Below are positions 4,078 to 16,593 of a stretch of DNA of 64,000 bases, piece after piece (position 1 is the stretch's first letter; every line of letters begins with the position of its first letter). The stretch is taken from assembly GCA_021732785.1 (NCBI GenBank), contig JAKFUG010000003.1, forward strand, positions 186,001 through 250,000, given 5' to 3'. The DNA comes from Planctomycetaceae bacterium (GTDB lineage Bacteria; Planctomycetota; Planctomycetia; Planctomycetales; Planctomycetaceae). The notes under the pieces are model-generated. The model saw only the letters and a list, made by a program, of their open reading frames with translations, was not told the DNA's origin and ran no database searches. A program made the position numbers and the translations under genes.

Positions 4078-4815
4078 ATGCGAATCCGGATGCTCGGAAC
4101 CGGGGGCTATCATCCCAACGCGCGGCGGCATACGGCATGTGTGCTGCTGCCGGAGATCGGGCTGGCATTCGATTGCGGCAGCAGTGCGTTCCGGTTACAG
4201 CACGAAGTCATCACGCCGGAACTGGACATCGTGTTGACCCACGCGCATCTCGACCATATTTGTGGTCTCACTTACCTCCTGGTGCCGATGCTCACAAAGC
4301 AGTGGCAAGCGGTTCGTGTGCATGCCGATCCCGACACGCTTGCCGCGGTGAAGACGCATTTGTTCTCCCAGCCGGTGTTCCCGGTGCTGCCGGCGTTCGA
4401 GTTTCACGAACTACAGGAGTTCCTGCCGGTGCGCGGGGGGACGATCCATCACATTCCGCTCCACCATCCCGGGGGCAGCCGGGGCTATCGGCTCAATTTT
4501 GACGACGGCCGGTCATTGGCGTACATCACCGATACGACCGTCGATGGCAGCTATACGAACTTCATCCGCGGTGTCGAGGTCCTGATCCACGAATGCAACT
4601 TCCCGGACGATCTCGCCGAATGGTGTCCACAGACCGGACACAGTCACACGTCGCAGGTGGCCCAACTGGCGAAAGACGCCGGTGTGGGACGGCTGTATCT
4701 GACCCACATCGATCCGCAACGCCCCGGTGATGACCCCCTGGGGATGGATATCGCGCGGGCGATCTTCCCGGAGACGTTTCTCGCGGAAGATGAAATGATC
4801 ATCGACATCGTTTAG
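4078..4815 (+). CDS. MBL-fold metal-dependent hydrolase, RNase Z-like
   Basis: This 245-residue protein has the metallo-beta-lactamase fold of the RNase Z/ElaC-like branch. It starts MRIRMLGTGG, a typical first strand and loop. The metal motif HAHLDH lies at about residues 57-62, and further ligands are likely at HHPGGSRGYRL, YITDT, HECNF and near the C-terminus in LTHIDPQ. Without the RNase Z flexible arm it is more likely one of the general MBL hydrolases found in planctomycetes than a tRNA 3' processing enzyme. It appears monocistronic, and the next gene is convergent. Confidence 0.82.
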   Translation: MRIRMLGTGGYHPNARRHTACVLLPEIGLAFDCGSSAFRLQHEVITPELDIVLTHAHLDHICGLTYLLVPMLTKQWQAVRVHADPDTLAAVKTHLFSQPVFPVLPAFEFHELQEFLPVRGGTIHHIPLHHPGGSRGYRLNFDDGRSLAYITDTTVDGSYTNFIRGVEVLIHECNFPDDLAEWCPQTGHSHTSQVAQLAKDAGVGRLYLTHIDPQRPGDDPLGMDIARAIFPETFLAEDEMIIDIV

Positions 4816-5338
4816 CCGCGACCCGGTAGGAGAGCGCTGCATGGAGCGCTCCATACGCGCGGCGTGTTCCACGCAGCGCTCCCCTCCGCGGACTACGGGT
4901 CGCAACTAAACGGTGTACGTGCTTTTGGGAAATTGACCGTGCGAAAGCTTTCGGAGTGCGCACCGACAGACGGGAGAGAAGTGGCGTCCCTGCCCACAGA
5001 CCGTCCCTGTTCGAGCAAATGCGTGGGAAATCGAACGGAACACTGAGTGAGTCTGTTACTTCCCTCCCGCGAGTCGGCGCGGCGGCAATTCGGGGTGAGA
5101 ATTGCTGCCGCACTCGCAGTCTTCGTGTGGGGTTGGCCGATGGAATCGGACCAGCGCGCGTGAAACCGATCGCGGAAAAATGCTCATCCCTGAGCCCCCG
5201 CGGTCGTCAATGACGCCCGCTTCGTCCGTCCGTGGTGTCTTCTTTTGTAGCCCTGTCGCTCCGCGACAGGATCTGCCGAACCAGTGAACGCTTCTGTTCG
5301 ATGGCTTTCCTGTCGCGGAGCGACTGGGCGACTTTCAA
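4816..5338. repeat. Convergent intergenic region with two inverted repeats
   Basis: This 523-bp gap between convergent genes holds no gene I can support. It contains an imperfect inverted repeat at about 4818-4840 / 4875-4905 (GCGACCCGGTAG against its complement) and a perfect 16-bp inverted repeat, arms 5255-5270 and 5309-5324 (GTCGCTCCGCGACAGG). The second is a plausible bidirectional transcript end but has no strong T-tract. Confidence 0.7.
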
Positions 5339-5821
5339 TCAACCGCTTAACTCTTTGAACAGCGGCCCAAATTCCGGCATGTCCTGACGCAGCGTTTCCT
5401 GCCAGGCTTTTGGATTCCAGATCTCGACGCAGATCACGGCGCCGACCACCACCACTTCCTGATTGATCGGGACATCGAGGAAGTCGCGAAAGCCTTCCGG
5501 AATCAGCAGCCGTGCCCGGTTGGCAAGCTGCACGGTTTGAAACCGAGTGGAGAGCAAGCGGCCAAGTCGCTGCACTTCATCCCACCGTTGTTCCATCCGA
5601 CCGGCTTGGATCTTCTGGCGGATGAGCGCGGTTCCCGCGTCGATCCGGTGTTGCCACTCCGCCGCTCGCCACAGACTCAAACAACCATAGCGCTCCTTGG
5701 CCACGATGGTCGACCCGGCGTCATCGGTCACCGCTTTCGCCATTTCCGACGGAAGGGACAGCCGGAAGCGCTCATCGAGCGTCCGCCATTCTTCGCCGCA
5801 GAGGAAATCGGTGACCGCCAC
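5339..5821 (-). CDS. mraZ: MraZ transcriptional regulator
   Basis: This 160-residue protein is MraZ, a DNA-binding protein with two AbrB/SpoVT-like half-domains that assembles into rings and, where studied, represses the division/cell-wall cluster that it heads. The halves are visible as [10 protein letters not shown] near residue 16 and [17 protein letters not shown] near residue 100. The start is a GTG in a weak ribosome-binding context. No rsmH, ftsL, mur or ftsZ gene follows; the downstream neighbour is convergent, so this is a solitary mraZ. Two 18-bp repeats lie 64-125 bp upstream of the start and are candidate self-regulatory sites. Confidence 0.88.
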
Positions 5822-5884
5822 AATCCGCTTTCAGCAAGTATCCGGGCGAAATCCTTTTCCGCCGTGAAATCAGACATGAGCGTA

Positions 5885-5944
5885 TTGGGCGTAAACCCCA
5901 CAGTCAAATGATTTTTCAAAGATCGTTTGGGCGTGAAACCCACA
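5885..5944 (-). promoter_or_regulatory. Paired 18-bp repeats upstream of mraZ
   Basis: Two near-identical 18-bp elements, 5885-5902 and 5927-5944, read TTGGGCGTRAAMCCCACA on the plus strand. They start exactly 42 bp apart, close to four helical turns. Each contains TGGG and CCCA as an imperfect dyad. Known MraZ boxes are TGGG-containing direct repeats upstream of mraZ, so an operator role is plausible. The spacing differs from the classical tandem 10-bp arrangement, so this is inference. Confidence 0.55.
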
Positions 5945-6063
5945 ACAGGTGCATACCCTACCGGTGCCGGTGAGGCATCGCAATCGTGTTGTATCGATTT
6001 TTCCGTTTTTTTCGGATGATTTACAGACGCGATGATGTAAATCATTGATGGGAAAAGAGTTGC

Positions 6064-6115
6064 CAAATGTCGCTTGCGCTTAGCAGAACATTCTGCTAAG
6101 CGCAAGCGACATTTG
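6064..6115. repeat. 25-bp perfect palindrome
   Basis: Arms 6064-6088 and 6091-6115 are exact complements with a 2-bp loop; the core is CGCTTGCGCTTAGCAG. It lies between the divergently placed mraZ promoter side and the end of the helicase gene. The rest of 5945-6148 shows nothing coding. Confidence 0.85.
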
Positions 6116-10930: not shown

Positions 10931-12535
10931 CTAACGCAACGGCGCGAACCGCCGCACGATCTCCCGCGCGCTGCGGAGACCATCCACCGCGGCGCTGACG
11001 ATGCCCCCGGCGTAACCGGCCCCTTCACCCACCGGATACAACCCTGCAATGTTCGGACATTGGCGGGATTGCAGATCGCGTTCAATCCGCACCGGCGCGC
11101 TGCCGCGCATCTCCGGGCCGACGAGAATCGCGCTCTTCAGAAAATCGCCACGCAGCTTGCGGTCCAGCAACGGCAGCCCGTTCTTGATCGCGGCCACCAC
11201 GACCGGCGGCAGCACGCTATCGAGGCTCGCGGGCTTCGCGCCGCGCTCATAACTGCATGAATAATGCGTTTCCGATGATGGCCGTTGTCCCGACAGAAAC
11301 TCGCGGGCGGATTGAATCGGTGTGTGATACTCGCCGCCGGTCAATCGGAAAGCGGCCGCTTCGTATTGTCGCTGCAGAAACATTCCGGCGAGTGGGTGAT
11401 CGCCACCGAACTCGTGCGGTTCCAACGTGACCATCACGCCGCTGTTGGCGAACGGCGTGTCGTGCCGTGAGTTGCTCATGCCGTTCGTGCAGAAGCAATC
11501 CGGCTCGGAAATGCTGGGGATAATCACGCCGCCGGCACACATGCAGAACGTGAACACATCCTTCGTGCCGCGGGCCTGCAACGTGTAATCGGCGGCTCCG
11601 AGCAGTTCCAGATACTCCGGCTTGCCGTACTTATGCTTGTTGATCTGCTCCTGCGGTTGCTCGATCCGCAAGCCGAGTTGAAACGCCTTCTGCACGAACG
11701 GCACGCCCTGGGCATGCAGCGTTTCATAGGTGTCGCGGGCACTGTGACCGATGCCGAGAATCACCTGCGAACCGGCAATGTATCCCGATGACGTGAACAC
11801 GCCCTGCATGCGGCCATCGCGAATGTCGAGCCGTTCGACGCAGCAGCCGAAGCGATATTCCCCGCCGAGGGCTTCAATCTTGCGACGAAAGTTCCGGCAC
11901 AACATCGGCAGCCGGTTGCTGCCGAGATGCGGCCGATTTTCATAGATGATCGACGGCCGCCCGCCGCAATCGACGAAGGCCTGCAGCGACCATTCGACAT
12001 CGGGCCCTTCGAGCCGGCACGTCAGCTTGCCATCGCTGAAACACCCCGCGCCCCCTTCGCCGAAGAGGTAATTATCCTCGCGATCAAACGCCCCGCCGCG
12101 ATCAAACGCCCGCACCGTCGGCACGCGTTCTTTCACCGGGCGACCCCGTTCCAGAATGATCGGCCGATACCCCTTCAGCGCGAGATAATACCCCGCGAGC
12201 AACCCCGCCGGTCCGGACCCGATGACAATCGGCCGCTCAGCCAACGGTTCGTCGCCGCCGCGCGGATCATCAAACGGCGGAGGTTCGTAAAGCACGGCGT
12301 CATCACGCAACCGGCTCTGCACCGCGGGCGATTTCAACGCCGCGTCGGGGAGATCGATCAGCGTGGTGTAGACGTATTGCAGATTCGCGGCCGACCGGGC
12401 ATCGAGGCTCTTCTTCAGAATCCGCCAGCGCTGCAAATCGCCGGCCGAAACCCCCAGCCGCTTCGCCAGCAGACCGGGCAACACATCCTCGGGAGTCCCC
12501 AGGGGCAGACGTAAATTGGAAATGCGAATGGGCAT
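10931..12535 (-). CDS. FAD-dependent oxidoreductase of the large conserved FAD/NAD(P)-binding family
   Basis: This 534-residue flavoprotein has an N-terminal alpha/beta region (residues 1-75, RISNLRLPLGTPED...) typical of this uncharacterised family. The dinucleotide-binding motif VIGSGPAGLLAGYYLALKG starts at about residue 104. Further family-like stretches are FGEGGAGCFSDGKLT, LGIGHSARDTYE, CMCAGGVIIP and, near the C-terminus, GLYPVGEGAGYAGGIVSAAVDG, which closes the FAD site. The physiological substrate is not known. The start directly precedes the conserved N-terminal strand. Confidence 0.85.
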   Translation of the reverse strand: MPIRISNLRLPLGTPEDVLPGLLAKRLGVSAGDLQRWRILKKSLDARSAANLQYVYTTLIDLPDAALKSPAVQSRLRDDAVLYEPPPFDDPRGGDEPLAERPIVIGSGPAGLLAGYYLALKGYRPIILERGRPVKERVPTVRAFDRGGAFDREDNYLFGEGGAGCFSDGKLTCRLEGPDVEWSLQAFVDCGGRPSIIYENRPHLGSNRLPMLCRNFRRKIEALGGEYRFGCCVERLDIRDGRMQGVFTSSGYIAGSQVILGIGHSARDTYETLHAQGVPFVQKAFQLGLRIEQPQEQINKHKYGKPEYLELLGAADYTLQARGTKDVFTFCMCAGGVIIPSISEPDCFCTNGMSNSRHDTPFANSGVMVTLEPHEFGGDHPLAGMFLQRQYEAAAFRLTGGEYHTPIQSAREFLSGQRPSSETHYSCSYERGAKPASLDSVLPPVVVAAIKNGLPLLDRKLRGDFLKSAILVGPEMRGSAPVRIERDLQSRQCPNIAGLYPVGEGAGYAGGIVSAAVDGLRSAREIVRRFAPLR

Positions 12536-12644
12536 AAAAACTCAACCGGCAGCGCGTTAGTTGCACGCGAAACCTTGGGGGATTGTCAGTGGTTCGTGGT
12601 CAGTTGTCAGTGGGAAAGACGATGAGCCGCGACCGATGATTTAA

Positions 12645-12664
12645 CCCCGGCATTCATGCCGGGG
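12645..12664. terminator. Short GC-rich hairpin between the TIR gene and the FAD gene
   Basis: The arms CCCCGGCAT (12645-12653) and ATGCCGGGG (12656-12664) form a tight stem with a 2-bp loop. It lies 85 bp beyond the TIR stop on the minus strand and could end that transcript, but no T-tract follows. Confidence 0.4.
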
Positions 12665-12749
12665 TGGATGACACACGATACCATTTTTTCGAGCCTGGAT
12701 CACGGGCATTTCCACAGGTGGCTTAGACTGGGAAGTTCCGAGCCATCAA

Positions 12750-13631
12750 TCAATTTGAGGCACTTCGGGGAACCCTTGCTCGCTGTTCAATAAAAAACGC
12801 GATTTGATCCGGGGAGTACTGTCGGCAGTCTATCCAACCATCAGATTCAAACACTCCAGTGACATCACCGTCTCCGGTCCGAATGAACATGATTCGGTTG
12901 TGTTGTCGATTAGCAATGATCTCACGGATTGCTCGAAATTCGATTCCGCTACACCAGCGTTTACGCTCATAGTTTTCTGAAAGAAACACAACATTCAGAT
13001 CTGCGTTTCGATAGATTGTTTGGAGCAAAGTGTCCAGTGAGGGGCGTGCAAGAAACGCTTGATAATGAAAGTCATAAAAGCATGAGTTAGGGCCGAGTCG
13101 CTGTTCAAGCCGCGAAGCAATATCTTGAGCGAGATCCCGATCTTCACCGGGGAATGACAATGCTACTGGAAAGGCATATTGCTCAAGGTCAACATATGGT
13201 CTTGGTGGAAATGCAGACGAGGAAGCTGCAATTCCACGGTTTGAAAGAATGTCTAGCAAGTCGACATTCTTTATTGCCCAATGCGTACGGCTATATTCAA
13301 ACCCATCAATATCCAGCTCAAAAGAAAGGGCCGCAAGCTGATTGTATGAAAGTGGTTGGGTATTGACCGGATCAAATTTCGCTCTCACTACGTCTCTGCG
13401 TTTTAGGATTTCAGTTAAGCGCACGAGATGGACTTGAGGGTTAGTTACGCACTCTTCATGGGCGAGTAAAGCAGGGAAAGCAAGCAATTCGTCAATACGT
13501 GTTTCGCCAAATCGAAAAAAATAGTCTCGGAGACCGGGGTCTGAATACTCAAGACAACGGCCGATTGGCATCGTGAAGCTATTGTCCGCGTATGCTTCAG
13601 AATCAATTGAAACGACAAGATGGTATGGCAT
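12750..13631 (-). CDS. TIR-domain protein with a conserved N-terminal module
   Basis: This 293-residue protein has a C-terminal TIR domain at about residues 153-285. The first strand is FPVALSFPGEDRD, followed by CFYDF near 184-188 (the box 2 position), LNVVFLSENYERKRWC (212-227) and the putative catalytic Glu231 in WCSGIEF. TIR domains with this Glu usually cleave NAD+ or make cyclic ADP-ribose-type signals, and many bacterial ones act in phage defence. Residues 1-140 form a separate module ending RTHWAIKNVDLLDIL that I recall from other bacterial TIR proteins. No sensor, SIR2, Thoeris or STAND partner is adjacent. The coding DNA is visibly richer in A+T than the neighbours, suggesting transfer. 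Confidence 0.85.
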   Translation of the reverse strand: MPYHLVVSIDSEAYADNSFTMPIGRCLEYSDPGLRDYFFRFGETRIDELLAFPALLAHEECVTNPQVHLVRLTEILKRRDVVRAKFDPVNTQPLSYNQLAALSFELDIDGFEYSRTHWAIKNVDLLDILSNRGIAASSSAFPPRPYVDLEQYAFPVALSFPGEDRDLAQDIASRLEQRLGPNSCFYDFHYQAFLARPSLDTLLQTIYRNADLNVVFLSENYERKRWCSGIEFRAIREIIANRQHNRIMFIRTGDGDVTGVFESDGWIDCRQYSPDQIAFFIEQRARVPRSASN

Positions 13632-13823
13632 TCAATATCAACCCATGATCGCTGGTTTACTCACAAGGAATCGGCTTTGGACCTTGGATGACCGCATTCG
13701 ACCGTCACTGACTTAGATTCTAACCAGAAGCAACTCGTAAGACATCAGTTGAATCGTCAAAACGCTTGCGAAGAAAAACTTCGCTAATGACACCCCTGCT
13801 CACCGTGGACGGGTGTAAAGCCG

Positions 13824-14219
13824 CTACCACGCAGGCGACCCCGTCAGCATGCGGGTGAAGATGTCGCCGTCGTAGCCGCGGGTGCGTTGGGGGTGCAGCG
13901 TGATGTAGTGGGGGGCGGTGCCGGTCCAGCGTTCGCCTTTTACCTTGTGCTCGGCGAAACCCTTGTCGGTGAGGGCCCAGATGGTGCCGGACTCGAAGGC
14001 CAGGTCGAACGTCACGAGGGAGTCCAGCGACTGGCTCAGTTCAAACGCGGCCGGACGGTATTTCGGATCCCAATCGGTGCCGTCGACCCGCTGGGCGTGA
14101 ATGCCGCCGCTCAGGACGAGCAGTTTGGCGTCCGGATATTTTTTAGCGACGGGTGGCTGGGGCGAAGTCCTCGCCGCCCCAGAGTTCGTTTCGGCACGAT
14201 GGCGATTTCGTGATTCCAC
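13824..14219 (-). pseudogene. C-terminal remnant of a gene fused to a repeat
   Basis: The open frame encodes 131 residues, but its first 25 or so (ESRNRHRAETNSGAART...) are a translation of the MITE-like unit at 14147-14263. The remaining 105 residues (from KKYPDAKLLVLSGGIHAQR to TGSPAW) read like real protein. The VLSGGIHAQR...WDPKYRP segment recalls the end of Tiki/ChaN- or erythromycin-esterase-like proteins, though this is a weak resemblance. The simplest reading is that repeat insertion removed the 5' part of a longer gene. It could be a short functional gene if a start inside the repeat is used. Confidence 0.55.
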
Positions 14220-14263
14220 ACGGCAATCTGGGTCGTCGCAGACTCCGACCCAGCCACCCGTCG
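14147..14263. mobile_element. 117-bp MITE-like unit, copy 1
   Basis: The unit has perfect 15-bp terminal inverted repeats, CGACGGGTGGCTGGG at 14147 and its complement ending at 14263. Its interior, from GCGAAGTCCTCGCC to ATCTGGGTCGTCGCAG, is shared with copies at 14375-14491 and 15562-15678. No transposase and no clear target-site duplication are seen. This copy has replaced the 5' end of the adjacent gene. Confidence 0.75.
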
Positions 14264-14320: not shown

Positions 14321-14546
14321 GTAAAGAGGCTTTGTAACAACGGGGCCAAGGCTGGAACCGCGTGGTGATTTGAGCGGCGGGTGGCTGGGGCGAAGTCCTC
14401 GCCGCCCCAGAGTTCGTTTCGGCACGATGGCGATTTCGTGATTCCACACGGCAATCTGGGTCGTCGCAGACTCCGACCCAGCCACCCGTCGTAAAGAGGC
14501 TTTGTAACAACGGGGCCAAGGCTGGAGCCGCGTGGTTATTTGAACG
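14321..14546. repeat. 170-bp-period direct repeat with MITE-like unit copy 2
   Basis: A segment beginning GTAAAGAGGCTTTGTAAC occurs at 14321-14374 and again at 14491-14546. The second 117-bp unit (14375-14491) sits between the two, so the array repeats with a 170-bp period. Only a few substitutions separate the copies, so the duplication is recent. Confidence 0.8.
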
Positions 14547-14635: not shown

Positions 14636-15352
14636 TTATTCCAAGTGGTCTACAGCGAGTTCACGTATTGACGTCAGCAGCATGTCTTCTGATTTCTTGA
14701 AGTCATCGTAGTCTAACTTAAAATCTTTCCGTGGCGAACCGGCATCAGTCCAGGCAAACTGACGCCAGAGTCCCAGAATCGACGGCCCATCTGTCACGCC
14801 CTTTGTGCGTTGGATCAACCAATATCCGTAGGTTGAGTAGGCCGCAGCGATTTTGTATTCGGGATTGGCAATCAACGCCTCTGCGTCACTGGTCTTCAGT
14901 TTGAGATCATGTTCCCGTGCAAGTTCAATGATCCGGTCGAGCATGAGTGCCAAGGAACGTCTCTTGTCTGAAGATGTGAGTTTCTTTGCCTTCAGGTGAG
15001 AACCGTTTACAAGCCGAGCACAGATCGAGCAGGAGCATGTACCGCCATATTGATTTCTCAGTACGACGCCGAAATCGTTCGTTATGTCGAAAGAACTGGT
15101 TAGGTACGTCCCGAAGAACGCCGCAAATTGACGCAGTTTATCTTCGTCCGGCCGCATGTCCGCGGGAAACGTCACATGAAACGGTTCGATCCAATCCAGA
15201 GTCGCGGCGGTAACATCGTCGGCATGGCGCGGTGACACGACGCGAGGTAACGGAATTTCACCGGTATCAATGGCGCGACCGAGCCAACGAAGCAATTTGT
15301 AGCTTCTGGAGTGGATATCAAGCGCTAATTTTAGTTCTTCTGGCGGCAGCAT
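14636..15352 (-). CDS. hypothetical protein with a CxCxxC motif
   Basis: This 238-residue, largely helical soluble protein is not recognised. A CSCSIC cluster near residue 110 could bind metal, and the middle is charged and helix-rich (DKRRSLALMLDRIIELAREHD). The segment WIEPFHVTFPADMRPDED near residue 55 and the acidic C-terminus are otherwise unremarkable. It has moderate A+T content compared with the housekeeping neighbours and is enclosed by repeat units at 14147-14612 and 15415-15678, so it looks like accessory DNA. No link to the TIR gene, 1 kb away on the same strand, can be shown. Confidence 0.6.
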   Translation of the reverse strand: MLPPEELKLALDIHSRSYKLLRWLGRAIDTGEIPLPRVVSPRHADDVTAATLDWIEPFHVTFPADMRPDEDKLRQFAAFFGTYLTSSFDITNDFGVVLRNQYGGTCSCSICARLVNGSHLKAKKLTSSDKRRSLALMLDRIIELAREHDLKLKTSDAEALIANPEYKIAAAYSTYGYWLIQRTKGVTDGPSILGLWRQFAWTDAGSPRKDFKLDYDDFKKSEDMLLTSIRELAVDHLE

Positions 15353-15510: not shown

Positions 15511-15561
15511 GCGCACCTCTTCGGTCAAGCAGGGCCACCCCGCTGCACCGGTTGAGACAAC

Positions 15562-15678
15562 CGGTGGGTGGCTGGGGCGAAGTCTTCGCCGCCCCAGAGA
15601 TCGTTTCGGCACGATGGCGATTTCATGATTCCACACGGCAATCTGGGTCGTCGCTGACTCCGACCCCGCCACCCGTCG
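15562..15678. mobile_element. 117-bp MITE-like unit, copy 3
   Basis: This copy is in the same orientation as the two at 14147 and 14375 and matches them across the interior with scattered substitutions. Its left end (CGGTGGGTGGCTGGG) and right end (GACCCCGCCACCCGTCG) have diverged, so the terminal repeats are no longer perfect. It directly follows a CACCGGTTGAG-type palindromic word. Confidence 0.72.
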
Positions 15679-15867
15679 CCAGGGGCACCCCGTGTGCTCG
15701 TCCAGCGACCTAAGTTCTCAAACATTCTCACACCCGAGACGGGCGTTCGCAAACATTCTCACACCCGGAAATTCCGCGATTCGCGCGCAACCCCCTCCGT
15801 AGGGTTGAGGGGAGCGATGCGATGACTCCCTCACTGGCGACCGAGGGTGGTCGAGGGAGAGCGGGTG

Positions 15868-16436
15868 ATGGCGCGGCCGACGCGGGAATCGTTGCTCGAA
15901 GAGTTGCGGACGCTGGCCGCTCAACACGGGCCGGATGTGACGGTCTTCACGTTCCGGAAAGAAACCGGCATTGCTCCGTATTACATCTATGACCGCTGGG
16001 GGAACTGGACCAATCTGCGACGGGCCGCCGGGTTGCCCGTACGCCCCCATCCCGGCCCGGTTTACTCCAATGACGAGTTGCTGGCCGAATACCACCGTGC
16101 AGCGGTGAACGTTGACGATTATCCGACCCACGCCGAGTTCAATCGGCTCTCCGACCGCTGTTTCCAAACGCTCGAAACCCGGTTTGGCACCACTCAGGAC
16201 GTGCAGCATCAATATCGGGACTGGCTCGCGGCCCAGTGTCCGGGGGAGTCGCCGAAGTTTCTGGAAGGATGCCCGCCGGGCTACGAGCCGACCGCCGTGC
16301 CGGGATTGAACATCATCAATGGGGACTGGCTCCGCAGCGTGATCATGGGGGTGGGACTGGGGTTGGTGATGGTGTTTGCGGAGGCGATGACGGCCGCGGT
16401 GCGGGGTCGGGAAATCCGTGGTCAACCACGGGCTGA
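15868..16436 (+). CDS. protein with homing-endonuclease-associated helical repeats and a membrane segment; stop codon lost
   Basis: About 190 residues read as genuine protein. Two copies of a roughly 60-residue helical repeat begin RESLLEELRTLAAQHG and YSNDELLAEYHRAA; the first ends in WGNWTNLRRAAGLP, the second in QTLETRFGT. This pattern fits the HNH/homing-endonuclease-associated repeat, a DNA-binding module found widely in planctomycetes. A membrane segment, SVIMGVGLGLVMVFAEAM, follows. The ATG at 15868 has a GAGGGAGAG site upstream. The frame does not stop here: it continues to 18453, antisense to aspS. Sequence after about 16414 looks like intergenic repeat, so the true end is lost and the end given is approximate. 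Confidence 0.5.
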
Positions 16437-16593
16437 GTGGTTCGCGCAAGCGGCACCCAGTGCCACCGGCGAATGGACTTGTTCGCCAGTGTCTTTGCGT
16501 CGACAGCAGTCTGCCCAAATCACTGGCGGTCCCGATCAACCGCCAATGGCACCCTTGCGCTCCCCTCTCGGGTCGCGGCGAAACGATATGCGT

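Follow-up and report, generated by a model that had tools for sequence, protein, structure and literature searches.

The window, the whole 64,000-nucleotide stretch of Planctomycetaceae DNA analyzed here, contains an intact gene for a protein in which a C-terminal TIR domain follows a separate N-terminal module (Table 1). The TIR assignment agrees with the preliminary description, made from the letters alone, which had recognized such a domain with a putative catalytic glutamate in the motif WCSGIE: residues 156 to 272 match Pfam TIR_2 (PF13676) over profile positions 1 to 111 of 122, with E=1.2e-10 and 42.4 bits (cut-off 28). The glutamate, E231, is the same in 9/9 aligned full-length homologues, its catalytic role being assigned by analogy with TIR NADases, and F154, S159, F160, P161, E163, D187 and W226 are among the further positions invariant in these nine proteins. 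No model of any named TIR defence system in PADLOC or NCBIfam matches the 293-residue protein at E values up to 1, no recognized defence gene lies beside the TIR gene within the window, and a promoter and terminator scan gave chance-level results.

Table 1. Features in and around the module-TIR gene (window coordinates)
Feature	Position	Strand	Basis
Module-TIR protein gene	12750-13631	minus	Intact ORF, ATG to stop, 293 aa; GC 0.460
TIR domain, residues 156-272	12816-13166	minus	Pfam TIR_2; VIA-align Z 15.0 to AbTir over residues 153-286
Codon of putative catalytic glutamate E231	12939-12941	minus	Invariant in 9 full-length homologues; role by analogy
N-terminal module, residues ~1-134, sensor-like, no Pfam family	13230-13631	minus	Profile matches, conservation, confident AlphaFold2 model
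Segment missing in sister genome G002	12603-13823		blastn of the window versus contig L167
3' remnant of ChaN-like gene (context only)	13824-14149	minus	Intact 267-aa homologue in G002, 92% nucleotide identity
123-nt repeat, three local copies	14141-14263, 14369-14491, 15556-15678		Internal inverted repeats
Orphan ORF	14636-15352

The gene is markedly AT-richer than its housekeeping neighbours, as had been claimed. Its GC content compares with 0.597 for the window, of which it is the lowest dip, and its GC3 is 0.391 versus 0.73 to 0.82 in the housekeeping neighbours measured. Stretches of 882 nt across the window have a mean GC of 0.597 (sd 0.026), with 0.33% as low as the TIR gene, and those with a GC of 0.50 or less all start within 12433-13084 and overlap the gene. 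The adjoining features are also as first described, namely repeats, a truncated gene and an orphan. The truncated ORF (13824-14219) is homologous over part of its length to an intact gene of G002 (L167, 8605-9408), whose protein is ChaN-like by our own reading, and this homology stops where the first 123-nt repeat starts. The repeat was dropped as the mark of a dedicated element because it is dispersed through the genome, with 22 matches. The orphan has no match in Pfam, NCBIfam or PADLOC, and none in the eight relatives searched. Near the TIR slot, an ORF at 15847-16539 has two matches to the homing-endonuclease-associated HNH_repeat (E=3e-14).

In the G002 assembly, which is 64% complete, the corresponding flanks lie on one contig and have 92% nucleotide identity with those of the window. 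There, the oxidoreductase and ChaN-like genes are about 560 bp apart and the DNA between them is unrelated to the window segment, which places the TIR gene in a variable slot; it was either gained here or, in the sister genome, lost or replaced. An ORF with zinc-ribbon-type cysteine pairs (L167, 9445-9915) occupies the G002 slot instead. The TIR protein is encoded once in its own genome. Of 58 relatives, none has a full-length match and 5 have TIR-only matches; the module is matched in 3 of the phylum's 391 other genomes, the two that were read carrying NDT-like and CAP12-like effectors instead. Vertical inheritance was rejected on the single copy, the 0/58 relatives with a full-length match and the 3/391 phylum genomes with the module.

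Full-length or near full-length homologues, with 38 to 47% identity, occur in a Saprospiraceae MAG, an alphaproteobacterial MAG, IMG/VR contigs (L025, L027, L028 and L050) and Pseudomonas plasmids, and a Rhizobium relative has 35% identity. The P. aeruginosa homologue, which looks like mobile-element cargo, shares its segment with genes for a recombinase, an integrase, a reverse transcriptase and an inovirus-type Gp2, and chromosome-type housekeeping genes flank the segment. A SEFIR-bearing E. coli relative has matches in 46 of 5426 complete genomes (at least 80% of the gene in 23) and is plasmid-borne every time, a module-NDT relative lies immediately downstream of a type II restriction-modification set, and further module homologues are found on plasmids, prophages, IMG/VR contigs and in scattered bacteria of several phyla. 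The homologues' neighbourhoods, whose listing the preliminary description had proposed as a check, are therefore not always of a housekeeping kind, with mobile-element, plasmid, IMG/VR and restriction-modification settings among them. On an Agrobacterium plasmid (L020, 1316-12423), two further TIR genes and a pair of caspase-family genes lie close to a module-NDT gene, and the group may be a defence cluster.

The comparison of residues 1 to 140 with profile databases, likewise suggested at the outset, returned no Pfam, NCBIfam, PADLOC or PHROG match for the window's module. Pfam, NCBIfam and PADLOC have no model covering the module in homologues either, and the sole model holding it is PHROG 4962, a phage family annotated as "unknown function" in which the N-terminal part is the window protein's module and the effector is FRG, not TIR. 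PDB sequences gave chance-level matches to designed TPR proteins with the module profile and none with the full-length profile, and a search of the non-subscription literature and a minority of preprints returned no paper that connects TIR or FRG with a module of this sort. Searches with residues 1 to 141 alone retrieved proteins with very different C termini. Dozens of proteins have the same unit of about 135 residues but not this TIR, which identifies the N-terminal part as a domain in its own right and bears out the separateness first ascribed to it.

The module survey comprises 86 distinct sequences (72 clusters at 80% identity), gathered by directed searches, so that the following proportions are biased: the module has no partner in frame in 32, and is joined to FRG in 16, TIR in 10, CAP12-type TIR in 4, SEFIR in 4 and TM in 1, with a broken frame in 1 and a weakly supported NDT-like class (Nuc_deoxyrib_tr E values of 0.003 to 0.06, under the cut-off) in 18. 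The FRG, SEFIR, TIR_2 and CAP12-PCTIR_TIR partners pass Pfam cut-offs, and the FRG, CAP12-type and SEFIR partners match PADLOC models of defence candidates; the full-length Cap12 (CBASS) models of NCBIfam fall far short, with 27.9 to 30.6 bits versus 450. FRG belongs to the ART superfamily and may, by prediction, be an NADase (PMC9503650). The effector domains of bSEFIR and CAP12/Pycsar TIR effectors stand behind the same module in relatives, whereas the window protein carries a TIR_2-type TIR. The module is portable, one unit joined to TIR, SEFIR, CAP12-TIR, FRG and NDT-like effectors, and it represents a sensor-like domain, apparently uncatalogued, that many predicted effectors share.

Several entries of the survey merit comment. 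In a prophage (L038, 4998-5911), the module and a CAP12-type TIR are encoded separately, by overlapping genes with phage tail-type genes around them, so this "no partner" entry is really a split pair. Another such entry (L075) appears cut or broken, its near-identical tree neighbour being an FRG fusion. On a plasmid of Rhizobium sp. CB3060 (L021, 5998-6830), the module of a module-NDT gene extends across two frames, which reflects a broken gene or a sequencing error.

In the module tree, the window protein belongs to a well-supported set that comprises nine TIR proteins and the Magasanikbacteria TM protein (SH-aLRT 99). The module of the Pseudomonas BYT-1 TIR protein groups instead with FRG and CAP12 proteins, away from the TIR set, an apparent effector swap. 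The tree, which has few columns and many open forks, requires 12 partner-class changes, the minimum possible being 6. Conservation across all modules reaches 99% for H117 and W118, 98% for P53, 96% for K121, and 94% for R25 and E59, and a signature E-x-x-R-T-H-W-A-[VI]-K is evident. The window's module has V70 where the others have a conserved Gly. It sits on a long branch (1.26), so its function may have changed or been lost. A decaying acquired gene, functionless in the present lineage, would account for this branch, for V70, and for the adjoining truncated gene and dispersed repeats; we consider it quite improbable, however, as the 293-codon frame is intact, the residues invariant in full-length homologues are kept, and both domains are confidently modelled.

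AlphaFold2 gave a pLDDT of 36 from the single sequence, and a mean pLDDT of 87 with a pTM of 0.69 from a 63-row alignment. The TIR half is closest to AbTir (VIA-align Z 15.0, 2.1 Å over 128 residues), followed by TIR-STING (14.2) and the TIR-APAZ of SPARTA (13.7). These three proteins share with the window protein the TIR fold and, in the catalytic position, a conserved glutamate; they lack its N-terminal module, and it has no Argonaute, APAZ or STING part. The earlier suggestion of a TIR NADase of phage-defence type is supported, as a prediction, by the domain, the conserved E231, the AbTir-like modelled fold and the homologue contexts.

The modelled module is beta-rich, with strands at residues 3-8, 18-22, 53-58, 66-78, 81-88 and 117-121 plus short helices. 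For the full model, VIA-align listed TIR structures only and nothing on the module. Foldseek returned dozens of TIRs plus the YTH domains of YTHDF3 and YTHDF1 (prob 0.82 to 0.98, E values of 0.007 to 0.034), and since it gives no aligned ranges, these YTH matches may lie outside the module; a viral ASCH protein was also found in the fold search. Comparison of the module profile with small EVE and ASCH sets by hhalign gave probabilities below 1%, not significant and in the same range as NDT, FRG and TIR controls (0.08 to 1.0%). We treat a PUA-like fold of the YTH/EVE/ASCH superfamily as a lead, with odds slightly in its favour. The layout may then resemble that of EVE-HNH modification-dependent restriction enzymes such as VcaM4I (PMC7897488), which carry PUA-superfamily readers, in that a reader is joined to a killing or cutting domain; those enzymes have a nuclease where the window protein has TIR, and the kinship between module and EVE is not significant.

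Drawing on the domain architecture, the conservation of E231, the effector swapping, the mobile and phage contexts, the deviant composition and the absence of the gene at the sister's site, we infer, with a confidence for the whole that is about evenly balanced, that the gene was horizontally acquired and would encode a single-gene abortive-infection NADase, in which the module would sense a cue from the invader. The C-terminal TIR, with E231 as its putative catalytic residue, would be kept inactive until the N-terminal module binds a cue of infection. The module, possibly a PUA/YTH-like barrel with its conserved H117-W118 pair, would bind that cue, likeliest a modified or non-self nucleic acid or nucleotide; a PUA-like fold, if right, would favour a modified base or nucleotide as the ligand. 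Binding would release the TIR or draw TIR domains together, switching on NAD+ cleavage, and the loss of NAD+ would halt the cell before phage release. Because most of the partners identified come from families with a known or predicted action on NAD+, which the NDT-like partners may have as well, the shared logic of the fusions would be that the module senses and an NAD+ consumer kills. The sensor role that had been floated for the N-terminal part gains support, since several effector classes carry the same module; the sensing itself we infer.

Alternatively, the module could bind a second-messenger nucleotide made elsewhere, as in CBASS, Pycsar and Thoeris effectors, with the protein acting as the effector of a two-part system whose halves are encoded apart. 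TIR, SEFIR and CAP12-type TIR effectors are regulated by nucleotide signals in known systems, and the CAP12/Pycsar TIR is itself among the partner classes. Among the annotated neighbours of the homologues read, however, there is no cyclase or other signal-making gene, and we regard such an arrangement as unlikely.

The TIR protein itself is a known kind of protein; the N-terminal module is the interesting, previously neglected half. Phages, plasmids and bacteria from several phyla have it in front of at least five classes of effector, which makes it a natural place to seek the trigger of single-gene TIR effectors, and its occurrence with several predicted NAD-consuming effectors hints at a general on-switch in suicide-type defence against viruses. 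Should the PUA-like reading be true, modified-base recognition, known from restriction enzymes, would be linked to NAD+ depletion. The module has relatives in Pseudomonas and on plasmids of E. coli, which makes it accessible to work with laboratory strains.

One clade of the tree (30 rows, SH-aLRT 98) consists of stand-alone modules from IMG/VR contigs, which have an N-terminal tail with a short motif, for instance FTQTGDKNTQIAHANSVN. In 26 cases, the protein encoded directly upstream ends in a C-terminal match to the module's motif, for example FNQNGNNNIQIGSIGTLTIN; this partner often has RLCGGTFFTLLLQARKPR near its start and has no Pfam family match, and its motif is amyloid-like, resembling RHIM/BASS3. 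The pairs comprise L046 (3839-5438) and some 25 others (L030, L034, L041, L044, L048, L070, L081-L101 and L104), and the motifs co-vary between pairs. Motif similarity within pairs has a mean local score of 51.9 versus 31.4 (sd 2.0) when permuted, with 0/5000 permutations as high, a result somewhat inflated by related pairs; a control stretch farther upstream scores 19.5 within pairs and 18.9 overall.

BASS pairs have matching motifs at the C and N termini of neighbouring Bell and NLR proteins, one class being RHIM-like, with the N-terminal motif on the receptor (PMC8086366). The prophage pairs likewise carry matched short motifs at the facing termini of neighbours, but have no NLR, and the window protein has no BASS-type terminal motif, its module beginning at residue 1-3 without an N-terminal tail. 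By analogy, the prophage module seems to touch its partner protein through the matched amyloid-like motifs, and would take the receptor's place, as the N-terminal motif in BASS sits on the receptor. An assembly or adaptor domain that multimerizes or docks on a separate receptor, its effector firing on clustering, would suit both these shared motifs and the presence of one module before several effectors. We find this rather unlikely, since the window protein, like most fusions, is encoded by a single gene and the neighbourhoods read show no obvious receptor as partner, and the conserved polar and aromatic residues R25, E59, H117, W118 and K121 look more like a putative binding site than an interface. 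We tentatively propose that the module may found a class of infection sensor that is undescribed, portable and perhaps PUA-like, gating NAD+-consuming effectors by fusion or, in prophages, by amyloid-like partner contact. Four contigs (L030, L031, L081 and L082, at about 4809-6090) each carry two tandem stand-alone modules, which come from different branches of the tree.
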